From contig PPXM03000002.1 of NCBI GenBank assembly GCA_003707065.3, forward strand, positions 1,612,001 through 1,676,000: a DNA stretch of 64,000 bases. Direction: 5' to 3'. The notes below the pieces were generated by a model. The model ran no database searches and was not told the DNA's origin. It saw only the letters and a list, made by a program, of their open reading frames with translations. The stretch is from Trigonopsis variabilis (Eukaryota > Ascomycota > Trigonopsidomycetes > Trigonopsidales > Trigonopsidaceae). Of the stretch, positions 9,202 to 46,933 are shown piece by piece. The translations under genes were made by a program, and so were the position numbers. Positions within the stretch are counted from its first letter, which is position 1. Each line of letters starts with the position of its first letter.

Positions 9202-9846
9202 TCAATGATGGTATGCCTGAGTAGGATGAGTAGCCACTTCAGGGTCCTTCTCATAAGAAGGAGCTGGAGGTCTAGAATATTCGGTCGAAGACCCTTGGCC
9301 ATACGGCGGTAGGTTGTAATACTGTCCTTGATTGACACTTGGACCTGTGTTCTGAGTTGGTGGTGGCGCTCCGGGCGGTGGAGCACCTGGCGCGCCTGGA
9401 GGTCCACTAGGACCAGGATAAGGCGGTACTGGTTCATTTGCTGCCTGCTGTTGGGATTCCCTATAGGTTGGAGGCAACATCCACTGAGTATATGCTATTG
9501 CATGGCTAGTAATGTCAGTTCGGCGCTCAATCTACCCAAAAGAAAACTAACCCTTGACGAGCTCGACGTAAAGCGAGATATCTTGATCATCAGTTACTTG
9601 CTGAGACTCCACCTTACCTAAACGACAAGAAACAGATTAAAAAGACTGCTACAATGACAGCTAAAAACACCCAGCGACCCCTCGATTGTCAGCAACACTC
9701 GCTCGATATTCCTACCATGAGTCCCTAAAGCGTTAGCACGAGCGTCTGCCTCCGCTACTCACCATGCAGAGTTACAGTCTCCGTAGTAATAACCTGCGGC
9801 GATTAGTTCAACTCTTATAATCTGCCTTACAGTCGTTATACCACAT
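9202..9846 (-). CDS. RCR-family membrane protein (chitin-synthesis regulation / Congo red resistance)
   Basis: RCR1/RCR2 relatives are single-pass endosomal/vacuolar or ER proteins with PY motifs that recruit Rsp5-type ubiquitin ligases and affect cell-wall chitin and transporter sorting. Six exons (9831-9846, 9763-9793, 9716-9724, 9618-9680, 9552-9581, 9202-9505) total 453 nt, or 150 aa; introns are 37, 38, 35, 36 and 46 nt. Spliced, the protein reads MWYNDCYYYGDCNSAWDSWG and continues RWVFLAVIVAVFLICFLSFR, the RCR pattern of a Cys/Tyr-rich lumenal end, W-x-x-WGRW and then a transmembrane helix. A basic stop-transfer (RRARQG), TQWMLPPTY and a Pro/Gly/Gln-rich cytosolic tail with PPTY and PPYG motifs follow. 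The third exon is only 9 nt; it supplies the DS of WDSW. Every junction has GT-AG ends and the total length is a multiple of three. Confidence 0.88.
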
Positions 9847-11020
9847 TGACGCTAACCTCGAAGTTGTGGACGAAAGTCTTTTGGGAGCCCTGATCTTGGC
9901 AGTAGTCCTGCGGGTACGGCGTTCAAGTTTGGCCCAAGCAATCATCACTACGGTGGGTGCACTGCGACCACGTAAATATATTCCCAGAGCGCCGCTAAAG
10001 ACTTGCGACAGATTCTTAATGTTGTGTCCATCAGATTTACATTGTGCCTGCAGCACGAGCTGTTTGTTACCGAGGCTTATAGGGCACAGTGGTCTGTCAA
10101 CGATGGCTGCCAACGTCAGTTTTGACTTCACCTTCCCCATGACGCGCGTTCTAACTACCCAAGTATCTCCCAATGAGCGCAACAAGAAAAAGCGCTGCTA
10201 ATCCTCAAACCGCTACATACTAAGCTCTCCTCTACACATAGCTTGTCTTTGGCGGTGATTTTCAGAAAACCTTTGCTCTTGCTTTTGCGAGTCTCAGGTT
10301 TCTCTTCTCGACCTCCCGTGGACCTCTTGGCCTGCTTAAGTCCGCACCCTTCCCCGACAACGCTCAGCTTGGGTCATAGACTATTGGCAAGAGGCGCAGT
10401 GGGAGAACCAACCAAGCATTGACCAGATTTGAAGAGTAATTATGGTTCCTGAGAGAGCCTAGGTGTATGGTCCCAATTATGACAGAGAGATTGCTATTCT
10501 AACTAAACCCAGTAAAGTCGTGGTGACAAAAACGGCATATACATGGGAATGATGGGTATGTGTTGGCATATTTTTCTGCCTCATTGTCTGTCAAAGGATA
10601 CCTTAACTTTTTCTCGTAATTGAGGACGTCTGTGGCGACGATTGATAGCGTAACTAGTTGTAATTGCCATCAAACCTCTTACAGTGTGAGAACCTAATGG
10701 CTTTCATGGAATTCCCCGCGAATAATGTTCATATATTGTACAGAGGGACCTTACATTGACCGAGTTACTAATAGAAGAAAGAAATTCAAGAAAGGCGGCA
10801 TAGAGAAATGACCAATTATTGTGTAATCAAATAATTTTGATCAAGTCTAGTGCTGATCCGTTTGATGCTTCGACTCCTTGCCGCTACATACACCTGCAAT
10901 AAAAAGAAACTGTCAAATTGGTAAGAAAGCGACTTATAATCCAGTGACGTTGGGATGGGACGTTGTTGCTTTGTGGCGTTATTGGCTGTAACACTGTCAT
11001 CTCATCAGACTTCCCCACAG
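9847..11020. other. Long gap with a GC-richer, doubly open segment
   Basis: About 1.17 kb between the RCR start and the next gene. The part nearest RCR (9847-10200) is visibly richer in G/C than other gaps here and has long open frames on both strands (plus 9866-10201, minus 9808-10185). Neither frame resembles a known family and neither has fungal-type introns with matching phase, so I do not call a protein. From 10200 to 11020 the sequence is ordinary AT-rich gap; it must contain the promoter of the small gene at 11021. No tRNA or rRNA was recognised. Confidence 0.4.
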
Positions 11021-27088: not shown

Positions 27089-28130
27089 CTAATTGAACTC
27101 ATTTGTTAACTTTCGAAAGTCATCCGGGTAAAAGATCAATCTCTCGGGCTCATTCTCAGTTAGAACGGCCATCCGGATAACACCTCCGGAGCTACCATCC
27201 CATTTAATTGCCTGAGATAAAGCTATTGTCAGTCTGATACTGATTCGATGCCCTTACAAGCTTTAACGAATTCAACTGCTTCATCCTTCGTCATTCCCGG
27301 TCGAAAATTGGCATTACAGAAACCGTAGATGTACTTTAGTGTTAGTAACGACATAATAAGAAGAACATACTGATGAGCCACTCCCAGCAATTGCAAATGG
27401 TTGTTTATGGACGCTTCCTCCTAAAGGAACGCTATAAACCTCTCCTCCACGACGTTTATCATAACCTGCAACAATTATTCCAGCTCTTTTTTGGTCAGTC
27501 AAGAAGTAAATCGTCCCACTTACGTTAAGTGGTCCTTTTGCTGATAGCAGACTTCTTGGAAGACAGCCGCCGCGATTTTCGCAGAAGGAGGTTCCCCATT
27601 TTGTATACTACTGCATTAATATCCGAAAATGATCTAAACTGCATACCTTAATGCGTCTAGATGGTATCTGACAAAATCAGCCACAGCTTGAGTATCCGCT
27701 GCAGAGCCCGACCTAAATATAAGAAAAGTCATATAAGTTGTAAATACCGGCCTAGATGGTTAGCTCAGAAATATGCGCTACACGTACAGCACCAGATTTT
27801 ATCATGGACTTGAGTCAATTTATCAGTTACTCTGAGTATGGTTAGTATGGTTAGCTGCGGCATTCGTACCGATTCGCTATAAAAGCTCCCGTAGTTGTCC
27901 GACTAAACACATTAGCAGATACTCATACTAGTATTAATATTACCTATCTGCACCTAAGACAACACCGCCATCAAAAGTGACAGCCATACTTAAGAGTTAA
28001 CAAGGCTCGACGGGAATATCATACATTGACGTGCCCAAGCTGAAGATTAGAAAACAGATACAGTCAATTCAGATACGTACTTCACCTCCCCTGCTTTGAG
28101 ACGATTGACGTCCACTAGAACGGAATCCAT
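27089..28130 (-). CDS. PRE3: 20S proteasome subunit beta1 (caspase-like site)
   Basis: Catalytic beta1 subunit; it cleaves after acidic residues. Eleven exons: 28081-28130, 28025-28039, 27944-27988, 27870-27902, 27788-27831, 27748-27751, 27647-27712, 27524-27610, 27371-27485, 27258-27333 and 27089-27222. They total 669 nt, or 222 aa (yeast 215). All ten introns are 35-41 nt with GT-AG ends. The propeptide MDSVLVDVNRLKAGEVNLG precedes catalytic Thr1. In mature numbering Asp17 (GADSRTTT), Lys33 (VTDKLT) and the S1-pocket Arg45 (WCCRSGSAAD) all fall in register. The conserved Cys-Cys-Arg-Ser is restored only by splicing in a 4-nt exon (GCCG). The rest follows family blocks AGIIVAGYD, GGSVHKQPFAIAGSGSS and AIKWDGSSGGVIRM. 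It lies head-to-head with BEM46. Confidence 0.95.
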
Positions 28131-28724: not shown

Positions 28725-29948
28725 ATGGATTATTTGTTCAGGACAGTTAAATTCCTGGGAGCAGGGGGATTAGTTTTGACAATTTCGGGGTTCTCTTTAT
28801 TATATTTCTTCCAAAGACGACTCGAATATCCTAGCGATCTCCCACCAGGAAGCAGGGAGCACGTAAATACGCCAGATATGGTAGGATTACCTTATGAGAA
28901 CTGCTTTATTCCTACTCGTGACGGAGAGACGCTGAATTTGTTCTTTATCAAGGTGACGGTCTAGAAAATGATGGACTGACGTGCTAGCCAGATTCATATA
29001 CTGATAAGTCCGGAAACAAGTATAAGAGTACAGTCATTGTATTCAATGGAAACGGAGGAAATATGGTATCTCCATAGAAGGAAGAGTTAACTGACTAATC
29101 TAGGGTGATCGGTTAGATCTAGCTGCAGAATTCTTCATAAGACTCAATTGCCAGGTGTAAGTAGGGCCATTCAGTGAGTATGTTCTTACTTTTAGAATTC
29201 TATTTTCCTATAGGGGGTAAGTCGATTATGGGATGAATGTTTTAACTATCAAGGTACGGTCACAGTACAGTAAGGAACCGAAAAGACCTGATCATATATA
29301 ACTTCTTTTAGGGCAGCCCTAGTGAGAAAGGGCTGAAAATGGATGTGGAGGCCTTGATGGACTTCGTCCTGGAAAATCCTGATATAAAAGAGAAAGATCT
29401 GATATTATATGGACAAAGTCTAGGAGGTGCAGTCGCTATTTACTTGGCGTCAAAATATCCATCAAGGGTAAGTAGCTAAGTTTTCTGAATTCTAATCCTC
29501 TAGTTTAAGGGCATGATACTGGAGAATACTTTCACTTCAATGCCAGAGGTCGCAGAGACGTATGATTTCCCAAAGCTTCTTCTAACTAAAAAAGCTTGTT
29601 TCCATTTTTAGGACCTCTTAAAAAACTTTTGAATTGGTTTTGTTCGGAAAAATGGTGTTCGAAAGATATCCTACCTTCAATTGGAATACCGATGCTTCTT
29701 CTGAGCGGGAGACGGGATGAGATCGTACCCCCTTCTCATATGGATGAGCTTGCAATGTTAGCTCACCATCAATTTCTGGAATTTGTCGCATTTCCCTCCG
29801 GGTAAGCACTTCTACTGCTCTTGTGCCGACTGACTCTAGATACCATAATTCAACATGTTTATGTCCTGGCTATTGGGAAGCCATTAAGACTTTCTATCAT
29901 GAGCGCATTCAAGGTATTAAAGAGAAAGAAAAGGTTTGGTTTGATTAA
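28725..29948 (+). CDS. BEM46: Bem46-type alpha/beta hydrolase (ABHD13 family)
   Basis: Membrane-anchored serine hydrolase related to fission-yeast Bem46 and human ABHD13; implicated in polarity in fungi, substrate unknown. Nine exons: 28725-28952, 28988-29065, 29104-29156, 29196-29216, 29254-29269, 29312-29467, 29504-29559, 29595-29801 and 29840-29948, totalling 924 nt, or 307 aa (S. pombe 299). Exons 4 and 5 are only 21 and 16 nt. An N-terminal anchor (GAGGLVLTISGFSLLYFF) precedes the fold. Motifs are in order: VIVFNGNGGNM, SYRGYGHSTGSPSEKGL, nucleophile elbow GQSLGGA, ENTFTSMP, the acid in SGRRDEIVPP and the catalytic His in YHNST. The splice model was built to restore these blocks, and each junction is GT-AG with a CTAAC/CTGAC-like branch. 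Confidence 0.92.
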
Positions 29949-30193: not shown

Positions 30194-32941
30194 ATGCCAT
30201 CTACACATAAATTCTCGACTGCCCTTTCTATAGACACTCCTCAAGAATTAAAATCTACCACTTTCTCTCTCGATGCTGAATCACATTTCGCCTTTTCACC
30301 AGATAGTCTGGCGGCAATCATGATTCGGCAGATCCAGGCCCGGGAATATGAATGCCTCGTCTGTCTCGGCCCGGTCACAAAAAAAGATCCTGTATGGTCC
30401 TGCTCCACCTGTTTTAGAGCGCTGCATCTTCCCTGCATTCGAGATTGGGCCATAAACGCTCTCAGTGCGCAAGACGGCGGCTCAGCAAAGAAGTTCTGGA
30501 TATGCCCTGGATGCCAAGCTCGACAATATGATGTTCCAGATCAGTACGCATGCTGGTGTGGTAAAGTTATTAATCCCAAACCGGAAGATTGTGTGATACC
30601 TCATAGTTGTGGCAAACCTTGCCAGGCTGACTATCCTTCTTGTCCTCATTCATGCACTTTAATTTGTCATCCAGGTCTGCACCCCCAGTGTGCCTCTCAG
30701 GGTCCCCGTCTTTTTTGCAAGTGTGGGAAGTCGTCGAGGCAAGATTCGTGTCAGGATACGCGCTATGACGGTTGGTCCTGCTACAAACCATGTGGCGAGA
30801 TCCTTCCATGCGGTATTCATACATGTAACCGTTCATGTCATGATGGACTCTGTGGACCTTGTCCTGAACCTATTGATAGTACGTGTTTTTGCGGTCGTGT
30901 TGTTAAAGATAAACCTTGTTGCGAATTGTCACCTCCTCTCCAAAGCATCACAGAGAAAGATTCAGAAATCATCGTATGGACAGGGTCCTTTTCTTGTGAT
31001 AAGCCTTGTGGCAGACTTCTTGCTTGTGGGATACATATTTGCCAACGTGCATGTCATCCACAAAGTCTTGAGCCGGCTATCTGTCCTTTTGATCCAAGCC
31101 TCATAAAAACATGCTTTTGTGGTAAACATACCGTTGAGGACGTTCTTAATCGGCGAAGACTGTCATGTGAAGAACCTCAGCCCTCCTGTGGAGAACAATG
31201 TGGAAAATTATTGCCTTGCGGTCACTCTTGTGAAAAACTGTGCCATCCTGGTCCATGTGATCCCTGCTCTCGTGAAGTATCTCGAAGATGTCGCTGTGGA
31301 AGAACGGAACTTATTACCGTTTGTAGTGACAAGGAACCTCTTTGTGACAAAGTCTGCAGAATGTCATTGAGCTGTGGTAAACATTCGTGCGATGTCATGT
31401 GCTGTCCTAGCTATCCATTAGCGAAAGACCGCCTGGCTGCCAAAAAGAAGCGCGGAGTGAAGCAGACTTGGATCGAACCTGGCCATCTTTGTATTCGCGT
31501 CTGTGACCGCTTGTTATCCTGTGGTAACCACCGTTGCTCTCAGCAATGTCATTCCGGTGCTTGTCCCAGATGCCTGGAAGCTTCCTTTGAGGAGCTAACT
31601 TGTAGATGCGGACGAACCATACGACAGCCTCCAATTCCCTGTGGAGCCAGACCTCCTCAGTGCCAGTTTCAATGTCCCCTCGAGCCGCCATGTGGCCATC
31701 GAGCTGTGAGACATCCTTGTCACTGGGAAGGAGATTGTCCAAAATGCCCAGTGTTAGTAGAAAAGTGGTGCATATGTGGCCGAACTCTTCTGAAGAACCA
31801 GCAATGTGGACGAAACTCATCAGGATGTGGAAAGAGATGTGAGAATATTCTTCCTTGTGGCCACAAATGTCTTAAGAAATGTCATCCACCCGGAGAATGC
31901 GAAACTAAATGTATTCAACCTTGTAGTAAGCTAAGGTTATGTGGCCATCCAGATACCGCTCATTGCCATTTAGGATCTCCCTGCAATGAAGAAAAGCCTT
32001 GCTCTAGTACAGTCAAAGCAAGCTGCGAATGTGGCCATATCTTTATAGACGTCACTTGCGGTGCTACTAAGACTGCAAAATCATCCCATACGATTCCTTG
32101 CACTGACGCTTGTGCTAAAGCGAAACGAGAGAAAAGATTAGCATCCGCATTCAATATAGATTTAGAAGTGAAACGAGAGAAAGACCGTCAAGAGGCTGCC
32201 GAATCTGCTTACAGTGATTACATTTTGAGCCACTATTCGAAAAATAGAATATGGTGTGATAGGATAGAGTCCCAACTAAGAACCGCGTTTTTCTCGTTTT
32301 CTCCAAAGCCTTTCCTGGCTTTCCCTGCGATGAAATCTGCTGACAGGAAATTCATTCACGAACTGGCCGGAAAATATGGCCTTGAAAGTATTGCCTATGA
32401 CAATGAACCGAATAGAAGCGTCACCGTCTATAACAGAGGAACCGCGATCAACAGTATTCCTGTCACTATAGCCCAATGTTTCAGTCTTCGACGTGCTCGC
32501 GGTGATCCTATTCATTCTTCTGACATCGGGAGTACCGAAGAACTAAGCGAGACAAATGAAAAATCTTTGATGGATGAAGTAGACCCTAGTGGACCGAAAA
32601 ATAATGGAGCGAAGAATAATTTCAATGGGTATTTCCTTCTTGGAGTTACGAATGTCAAAGTTATCGATGAATTTCGGGTAAATCTTGCTAAAGCGGTTGG
32701 ATTGAGTGAATCCTGTCTGAAGGTCGAACTCACGCTAGCAGGTCAAGAGCTAGGGTTGGTTGTACAATTAGCATTCGACAATCCAGAAGAAGATCACGAT
32801 CTGAAAGTTAGAGAATTATACGACATTGTGAAGTACCAGTCCGCGTCAATCACTGACGAGGAAGTCTTCATGAGCAGGATTGGCGATAACATGGAGATAT
32901 TGGCAATAGGGGATGGAAATGAATTTTTCTCTGTACAGTAG
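30194..32941 (+). CDS. FAP1: NFX1/FAP1-type RING zinc-finger protein with R3H domain
   Basis: Relative of human NFX1 and yeast Fap1 (an FKBP12-binding protein), a nuclear or nucleic-acid-binding regulator that may also be a ubiquitin ligase. It is a single exon of 915 aa. A RING-like domain at about residues 55-115 (CLVCLGPV ... CSTCFRALHLPCI ... CPGCQ) is followed by a long run of NFX1-type fingers with the pattern CGxHxCxxxCHxGxCxxC, for example CGIHTCNRSCHDGLCGPCPE and CGHSCEKLCHPGPCDPCSRE. Near the C-terminus is an R3H-like domain (FPAMKSADRKFIHELAGKYG and the following NRSVTVYN). The ATG at 30194 is the first in frame with the start of conservation; orthologues are about 950-1100 aa. Confidence 0.93.
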   Translation: MPSTHKFSTALSIDTPQELKSTTFSLDAESHFAFSPDSLAAIMIRQIQAREYECLVCLGPVTKKDPVWSCSTCFRALHLPCIRDWAINALSAQDGGSAKKFWICPGCQARQYDVPDQYACWCGKVINPKPEDCVIPHSCGKPCQADYPSCPHSCTLICHPGLHPQCASQGPRLFCKCGKSSRQDSCQDTRYDGWSCYKPCGEILPCGIHTCNRSCHDGLCGPCPEPIDSTCFCGRVVKDKPCCELSPPLQSITEKDSEIIVWTGSFSCDKPCGRLLACGIHICQRACHPQSLEPAICPFDPSLIKTCFCGKHTVEDVLNRRRLSCEEPQPSCGEQCGKLLPCGHSCEKLCHPGPCDPCSREVSRRCRCGRTELITVCSDKEPLCDKVCRMSLSCGKHSCDVMCCPSYPLAKDRLAAKKKRGVKQTWIEPGHLCIRVCDRLLSCGNHRCSQQCHSGACPRCLEASFEELTCRCGRTIRQPPIPCGARPPQCQFQCPLEPPCGHRAVRHPCHWEGDCPKCPVLVEKWCICGRTLLKNQQCGRNSSGCGKRCENILPCGHKCLKKCHPPGECETKCIQPCSKLRLCGHPDTAHCHLGSPCNEEKPCSSTVKASCECGHIFIDVTCGATKTAKSSHTIPCTDACAKAKREKRLASAFNIDLEVKREKDRQEAAESAYSDYILSHYSKNRIWCDRIESQLRTAFFSFSPKPFLAFPAMKSADRKFIHELAGKYGLESIAYDNEPNRSVTVYNRGTAINSIPVTIAQCFSLRRARGDPIHSSDIGSTEELSETNEKSLMDEVDPSGPKNNGAKNNFNGYFLLGVTNVKVIDEFRVNLAKAVGLSESCLKVELTLAGQELGLVVQLAFDNPEEDHDLKVRELYDIVKYQSASITDEEVFMSRIGDNMEILAIGDGNEFFSVQ

Positions 32942-33092
32942 TTTTGGTCTGTAATAATGGGATTTTTCTTTGAAGTAGAATAGAAATATTCACATATCAT
33001 AGATTTCAAATGGGAGGAAGAATTGCTTTAATGGCCTGGCGGGTCATAAAACATAATAAATAAATTAACTTTGAATAAAAAAGAAAAAAAAC

Positions 33093-33196
33093 TGCTCGAT
33101 GTGAGGTTCGAACTCACGACCTTCAGATTCCCCACAGTTCACTATGGGTCACATATTATATGAGACTGACGCGATAACCAGCTACGCCAATCGAGC
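33093..33196 (-). tRNA. Elongator tRNA-Met (CAT) with a 30-nt intron
   Basis: Read on the minus strand, the gene starts with acceptor arm GCTCGAT (33190-33196) paired with ATCGAGC (33094-33100) and discriminator A at 33093. The D arm GCG/CGC encloses TAGCTGGTTAT, and the T arm is GTGAG-TTCGAAC-CTCAC. The anticodon arm reads TCAGT-CTCATA / A-TCTGA, the conserved elongator-Met form, with anticodon CAT. A 30-nt intron interrupts it one base 3' of the anticodon, the canonical position. A T-rich run (33080-33092, A-rich on the plus strand) follows as a Pol III terminator. Initiator tRNA is excluded by the TTCGAAC loop and the TCAGT anticodon stem. CCA is not encoded. Confidence 0.95.
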
Positions 33197-33644
33197 GCTT
33201 ACTGTGTCAGACTTCCCTTCTTGCGTACGAGAGATGCAACGATTACATAAGCACAATTGCTATTCAATTTTTAGAACGTTAAATAGTCTAAAATGCAAAA
33301 CAATAGGGGACAATGTTTTGAGCTATCCCTTTCTCAAACGTGCAATAGAAATTCGGAGTGAAAGTAGCCAGAGCGACATCGGATTGACCAATAAGAAGCT
33401 CTCATTAAGTAAGAATCTGAACACCCCAGAGACGACTTGCACCTGCCAGGTGTAAATTTACGTAGTGGCATAATGATTTGCTCAAGCTCGTTCAGCATCA
33501 GCGTAGCGATATAGCGGAAATCCACGTGCGAGGGCGGATAGGTTGTGGAGGCTAACTGTGTTTCGCCCTTTTTCGAGTAGAGCGTAGACACGCACTTACG
33601 CGGAACCGCGTGGAAGGTTACCCTGCCGGTTCCGAGTGGCGACC
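33197..33644. other. Gap upstream of MIX17, opposite the tRNA-Met
   Basis: Forms the 5' flank of both the tRNA (minus) and MIX17 (plus). The short frames on both strands have no family resemblance. Nothing else was recognised before the TATA element. Confidence 0.4.
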
Positions 33645-46300: not shown

Positions 46301-46933
46301 ACTCAGGCACATTCCAGCAATAAAGTTACGTATTGCCATTCGCTCTTCCGTAGGTAAGGCCTTCCACTTGGTATTGACAATTTTATCTAGAATTGATAAC
46401 GCTAAGAATTTAGCTTGAGGATCTTTAGACTGCGTCAATATTTTGTCAGCTCTTTGCCATGAATCAGGATGTTCTTGGAACTAGATATTGGTCAGCAAAA
46501 TCTCTCAAGACACGAATATCGAATAGGACTTACCCGACTAAGAACTTCTTGAGCAATATCACGCTAGCATGGTTAGAATATTATTTATACCTCTCAGCTT
46601 ATGATAAAATAGACATTTGTTAATCAAATACTAACATCATACGTGATTTGGAAAAAATTATGCCATTCTTGAAGAGAGCATTGACGAAAGGCGAAATCAC
46701 GCAAAAAAAGAATTTTTCGTCGATGGAAGTAGGCAAAAACTTTCTCTGTAAAGAACCACTTCCATGCTTCAAAGAAGTCAAATAAATGGATCGATTGAGT
46801 TGATCCGGAAAACAAACTGAGATGCACGGGAATAATCACATACCTCAGGTCCTGATCCAGAATAGAATGCATTAACGACTCTATCGAATAACGCGACATC
46901 AAATTCGGACGAGAAGTCCAAGATTCCTTCCAT
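43361..46933 (-). CDS. CRM1: Exportin-1 / Crm1 nuclear export receptor
   Basis: Karyopherin that exports leucine-rich NES cargoes with Ran-GTP. Exons 46844-46933, 46534-46563 and 43361-46480 give 1079 aa (yeast 1084). The first intron is 280 nt and the second 53 nt; exon 2 is only 30 nt. [20 protein letters not shown] opens the protein, and the HEAT repeats contain [40 protein letters not shown] and the NES-groove helix [20 protein letters not shown]. At the position of the leptomycin-B-reactive cysteine (human Cys528, S. pombe Cys529) the sequence is [11 protein letters not shown], with Thr at about residue 531, as in the naturally resistant S. cerevisiae protein (Thr539). The C-terminal acidic tail ends with RPADMSDEP. 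Confidence 0.96.

Follow-up and report, generated by a model that had tools for sequence, protein, structure and literature searches.

A four-nucleotide exon is predicted to supply Arg45 of the proteasome beta1 subunit in Trigonopsis variabilis

The stretch of Trigonopsis variabilis DNA that we analysed, hereafter the window, comprises 64,000 nucleotides of contig PPXM03000002.1 and carries on its minus strand a PRE3 gene, encoding the proteasome beta1 subunit, at positions 27089..28130 from start codon to stop codon. The gene was modelled with 11 exons (50, 15, 45, 33, 44, 4, 66, 87, 115, 76 and 134 nt, from first to last) that encode 222 amino acids and are separated by ten GT-AG introns of 41, 36, 41, 38, 36, 35, 36, 38, 37 and 35 nt. 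Of the nine internal exons, four (2, 4, 5 and 6) measure less than 45 nt. The proteasome is a core protease and is essential in yeast. A reading made from the sequence alone had named this gene PRE3/beta1, an identity that homology searches bore out. Residues 16-198 of the 222-residue product matched Pfam entry PF00227 (E=3.4e-49), placing it in the proteasome family, and among the best 60 of 272 PDB matches the top one was yeast Pre3 (E=5.2e-103, 346.7 bits), whereas the best chain named beta2 reached 95.3 bits. Identity to yeast Pre3 extended to 155 of 215 aligned residues. A search of viral contigs for relatives of the PRE3 protein returned three pattern matches, none of them a relative. 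The divergent neighbour of PRE3, an alpha/beta hydrolase gene at 28878-29948 on the plus strand, was modelled with eight introns of 35-42 nt, and the part of it that matches Pfam includes two short exons, of 21 and 16 nt; 26 of the 29 other modelled genes in the window have between zero and three introns.

Exon 6 of PRE3 (27748..27751; this and all further PRE3 features lie on the minus strand) consists of the four bases GCCG, of which the first two would complete the codon for Cys63 and the other two would begin that for Arg64, i.e., Arg45 of the mature subunit. It is preceded by intron 5 (27752..27787, 36 nt, score 7.4), which reads GTACGT...CTAAC(27763-27759)...ATCTAG, and followed by intron 6 (27713..27747, 35 nt, score 3.9), which reads GTATTT...ATTTAG; its donor, carrying T at +5, is weak, and a strong branch-point match is lacking. 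Both flanking introns are canonical GT-AG introns of normal size, the median being 38 nt for the 62 other introns modelled in the window. The 44-nt exon 5 (27788..27831) ends TGG TGC T and the 66-nt exon 7 (27647..27712) begins G TCG GGC TCT, and the spliced junction reads TGC TGC CGG TCG, i.e., Cys-Cys-Arg-Ser, within a WCCRSGSAAD motif that is split over three exons. The exon ends, the two intron lengths, the GCCG and the Cys-Cys-Arg-Ser product given in the sequence-only reading are all present in the minus-strand sequence.

At the same place yeast Pre3 has WCCRSGSAADTQA, with an alignment that is gap-free through the junction, and mammalian beta1 (PDB 1iru chain H) has FCCRSGSAADTQA; common to these two proteins at the WCCRSGSAAD site is CCRSGSAADTQA. 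Yeast Pre3 and mammalian PSMB6 thus belong to the same family as the PRE3 product and carry the CCRSG motif with Arg45, the particularity here being the spread of the motif over three exons. In the PRE3 product, Gly(-1)-Thr1, Asp17, Lys33 and Arg45 are in register, with Thr1 at residue 20 and Arg45 at residue 64, and this residue numbering agrees with the earlier assignment of the arginine to mature position 45. Arg45 was obtained solely when the 4-nt exon was included. The presence of a 4-nt exon with this coding potential is accordingly confirmed as an observation, and the interpretation that it would supply Arg45 is supported. This residue is thought to set what the proteasome cuts, and it presumably has the same function in T. 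variabilis. In mammalian beta1i, the paired replacements Thr21Val and Arg45Leu are described as altering the S1 pocket and lowering caspase-like activity (PMC8700164), and Arg45 is also named in an account of the Trichomonas beta1 pocket (PMC11452676).

To place these introns among others, we used a gene finder that started from long open reading frames and the eight undisputed introns of the manual PRE3 model and was then self-trained on the window; the two disputed introns, 5 and 6, were left out of the training. It returned 31 genes, 64 introns (the 62 undisputed ones with a median length of 38 nt) and an 11-exon PRE3 identical to the manual model. The Pfam scan covered seven of the 31 predicted proteins, so that most of the other gene models stand as unverified predictions. 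The same holds for the majority of the 62 introns used for comparison, which are ab initio calls and of which at least three, in the gene for CRM1 (exportin-1), are wrong. That gene has an intron of 280 nt (46564-46843, minus strand), more than seven times the median intron size. This intron is supported by the joined N-terminus, which aligns without gaps with yeast exportin-1, and no Rfam match was found in it up to E=1. The gap-free direct join over the 280 nt refutes the 7-nt and 14-nt CRM1 exons that had been predicted ab initio (46534-46597, minus strand). Three internal exons shorter than 10 nt were predicted in the window; besides that of PRE3 these are the refuted 7-nt CRM1 exon and a 9-nt exon (9716-9724, minus strand) upstream of an RCR domain (9202-10140), which lies outside the Pfam match and is without homology support. 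The false CRM1 exons indicate that a tiny exon proposed by the gene finder alone is not to be trusted.

We enumerated the possible splice parses between the first base of exon 5 and the last of exon 7, allowing up to two introns, each no longer than 140 nt and, for the GT-AG set, no shorter than 20 nt. This gave 53 open in-frame GT-AG products, among which the 4-nt model ranked first against yeast Pre3, with a score of 801. Second was a single 71-nt intron (27713..27783, donor GTGTAG), which yields threonine at position 45 and scored 795, a gap of only six points, and third was a parse with introns of 30 and 35 nt that adds two residues (789). The same three led, in the same order, when GC-AG introns were included (182 products) and when AT and AC ends were added (2,424 products). 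The family-standard Cys-Cys-Arg45-Ser arose, among the enumerated parses, from inclusion of the 4-nt exon alone. By reading, removal of a single interval with non-canonical ends could also give Arg45, at the price of AC...TT, CG...TA or TA...TT ends; such removals were rejected.

The nearest competitor, namely removal of the 71-nt intron from 27783 to 27713 to give a subunit with Thr45, has in its favour an open, in-frame product that comes second in the enumeration, and longer-than-usual introns do occur in the window, as in CRM1. We nevertheless regard it as improbable. Its donor, with a score of -1.1, ranks last behind the 62 other modelled donors and brings the intron to a total of -2.2; of all GTs in the window, 70% equal or exceed this GTGTAG in score. 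Moreover, it alters a residue that is common to yeast and mammalian beta1. The sequence-only reading had already pointed out this intron and its Thr45 product, both of which exist; the term "skipping" that was applied to it does not hold, since the event would in truth be a shift of the donor. It had further argued that the intron is twice the normal size, which is weak evidence by itself given the homology-supported 280-nt intron of CRM1. The stronger case against the 71-nt intron is its poor donor, rather than its length.

In splice score, the two-intron model exceeded the 71-nt intron by 13.4 bits. When PRE3 was left out of the training, the difference was 12.5 or 18.9 bits in two training sets (one of 54 introns, the other of 45 introns no longer than 60 nt), a procedure that is not fully independent because eight PRE3 introns of the manual model had seeded the gene finder. 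In each of these sets the 4-nt exon was retained at four of five intron-cost settings; at the harshest cost (1/1000), the front half of PRE3, microexon included, was lost. The second set (45 introns) also displaced the acceptor of intron 7 by 3 nt. Intron 6 is the weaker of the two introns in the favoured model. Among the 62 other donors, only one scores lower than its CCG/GTATTT, and that one belongs to the CRM1 parse refuted by homology; the G at +5 is absent here and present in 52 of 62, and the best branch match in intron 6 scores only 2.6.

Chance expectation was estimated from 60,000 shuffles of the 75-nt interval, in which six bases at each end were pinned and the remainder was shuffled with dinucleotides preserved. 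A two-intron parse giving WCCRSG, its middle exon being 30 nt or shorter, arose in 22 of the 60,000. Both introns reached a score of at least 3 in two of these, and at least 3.9 in none (the observed values being 7.4 and 3.9). With the looser pattern WCC-x-SG and the middle exon limited to 12 nt, 175 of the 60,000 shuffles offered a two-intron parse. Single-intron parses behaved differently according to the pattern: none of the 60,000 shuffles gave WCCRSG in this way, whereas all 60,000, the pinned donor GTACGT being retained, gave WCC-x-SG. The latter is due to the pinned GTACGT, which holds a second GT at +5/+6, the very GT that the Thr45 intron uses. The in-frame fit of that intron is thus automatic and weightless as evidence, whereas the fit of the microexon does carry weight. 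Homology, splice enumeration, splice-site scores and shuffles all bear out the earlier proposal of a 4-nt exon with Arg45, and it is on homology, frame and splice signals together that the case for this predicted exon rests.

Exon 6 is required both for the reading frame and for the conserved motif. Plain skipping of the exon removes 75 nt and shifts the frame, with a stop at amino acid 81, and retention of either intron 5 or intron 6 leads to a stop at amino acid 70. Besides the 4-nt model, 52 open GT-AG products exist, of which the Thr45 form made with the shifted donor is the closest to yeast. It might also be that both products are made, the overlapping donors GTACGT and GTGTAG acting as a switch between Arg45, with caspase-like specificity, and Thr45, with an uncharged pocket. 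Both products are open and in frame, and the Arg45Leu replacement of mammalian beta1i (accompanied by Thr21Val, PMC8700164) offers a case in which a changed S1 pocket goes with lowered caspase-like activity. If such a switch were true, the fungus could adjust the specificity of its proteasome by splicing, much as mammals swap beta1 for beta1i. However, the Thr45 donor is very poor and exists as a by-product of the donor consensus, and we consider the switch very unlikely.

A second microexon of the gene is exon 2 (28025..28039, 15 nt). It encodes Leu-Gly(-1)-Thr1-Ser-Ile, which comprises the autoprocessing site and the catalytic nucleophile and is identical to LGTSI in yeast. Skipping of exon 2 keeps the frame and gives a 217-residue product with the stop at codon 218; if ever used, it would yield a beta1 without its nucleophile. 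A scheme in which the donor shift (GCCG and Arg45 versus Thr45 and an uncharged pocket) and the skipping of exon 2 (a dead beta1) jointly tune the proteasome by splicing is, in our estimation, just as doubtful as the switch taken by itself.

Two further explanations were weighed. In a twin intron (stwintron), one intron sits within a splice site of another, with no exon between the two; such arrangements are known in fungi and likewise put two introns side by side. We enumerated 764 nested pairs (inner GT-AG, outer GT-AG or GC-AG), which gave 23 distinct open products, none of them the Arg45 product, and the best nested parse was again the Thr45 product, reached through the poor outer donors GTCTAA or GTGCCG. 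A stwintron is therefore a far-fetched reading of the locus. The same low standing applies to an assembly error or a pseudogene: the remaining eight introns fit an intact 222-residue beta1 that is free of frameshifts, and the locus is explained without invoking any error. An introner-like origin of the two introns was also considered and rejected. Introns 5 and 6 are unlike each other (local score 6), the best match of intron 6 (12) falls inside the shuffled null (mean 12.5), and that of intron 5 to another intron (13, against a 95% null value of 12) is in excess by an amount that we do not regard as meaningful. Folding of the RNA over 27693-27807 was not unusual (z=+1.1, with 174 of 200 shuffles folding at least as well) and thus gave no sign of a hairpin that might bring the splice sites together.

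Very probably, then, the locus holds a normal PRE3 gene of a short-intron fungus, in which exon 6 is real and constitutively included, likely through two rounds of intron-defined splicing. Introns 5 and 6 would each be recognised across themselves and removed in separate rounds; once either is gone, GCCG would form part of an ordinary exon end, from which the other intron could be spliced next. Intron 5 would probably be removed before intron 6, since it has the stronger donor and a consensus CTAAC branch site. The sequence-only reading had held that an exon of 4 nt is far below what exon definition can handle, which is too strong a statement: for the splicing of a constitutive 4-bp exon, the human MPC1 gene is reported to rely on definition elements in the introns to either side, with a core stretch that reaches 67 bp upstream of the exon, and an MPC1 minigene is described as still splicing when the exon is cut to 2, 1 or 0 bp (PMC9929638). 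Intron definition nevertheless appears the likelier mode at exon 6, because the flanking introns are only 35-36 nt long and an upstream stretch of the MPC1 type would be too long for them.

Although rare, exons of this size have been described before in fungi, plants and humans, and smaller fungal ones exist. The exon of MPC1 resembles that of PRE3 in having four bases, a number that is not a multiple of three, and in being constitutive, as we infer for exon 6; unlike in PRE3, its core element, at 67 bp upstream, exceeds any whole intron of the gene described here (PMC9929638). In fungi, CYP621A of Fusarium is reported to have a 1-nt exon in 20 Fusarium orthologs, confirmed by SRA reads in two species (PMC12940212). 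This ultra-small exon is likewise forced by the frame and a conserved motif and flanked by GT-AG introns; in contrast to that read-supported 1-nt exon, the PRE3 exon has 4 nt and is known from one locus and from its sequence. The lipS genes of Dactylellina haptotyla, mentioned in passing as having two 3-nt exons, are different fungal genes with more than ten introns and, like PRE3, with exons of a few nucleotides (PMC5639578). Xlr2 of Trichoderma, a transcription factor, provides another fungal microexon, in this case in a filamentous species and with inclusion reported to be regulated by glucose (PMC11121469). The plant gene APC11 of Arabidopsis is, like PRE3, a housekeeping gene with an ultra-small exon, namely a constitutive exon of 1 nt that was tested with reporter constructs (PMC4674806). 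Among the matches listed from open-licence PMC papers, none reported a microexon in a proteasome beta1 gene. If confirmed, exon 6 would place the residue that gives a core protease its specificity in a very small exon, the plain skipping of which truncates the protein. It would also offer a clean natural test of the use of splice sites that lie 4 nt apart, between introns too short to hold long definition elements. Exon 6 would probably escape annotation pipelines, which would report either Thr45 or a broken gene.

Elsewhere in the window, a tRNA gene at 33093-33196 on the minus strand was detected by Rfam (52 bits) and was not reported by ARAGORN within 32900-33400. At 104 nt in length, this tRNA gene probably contains an intron.
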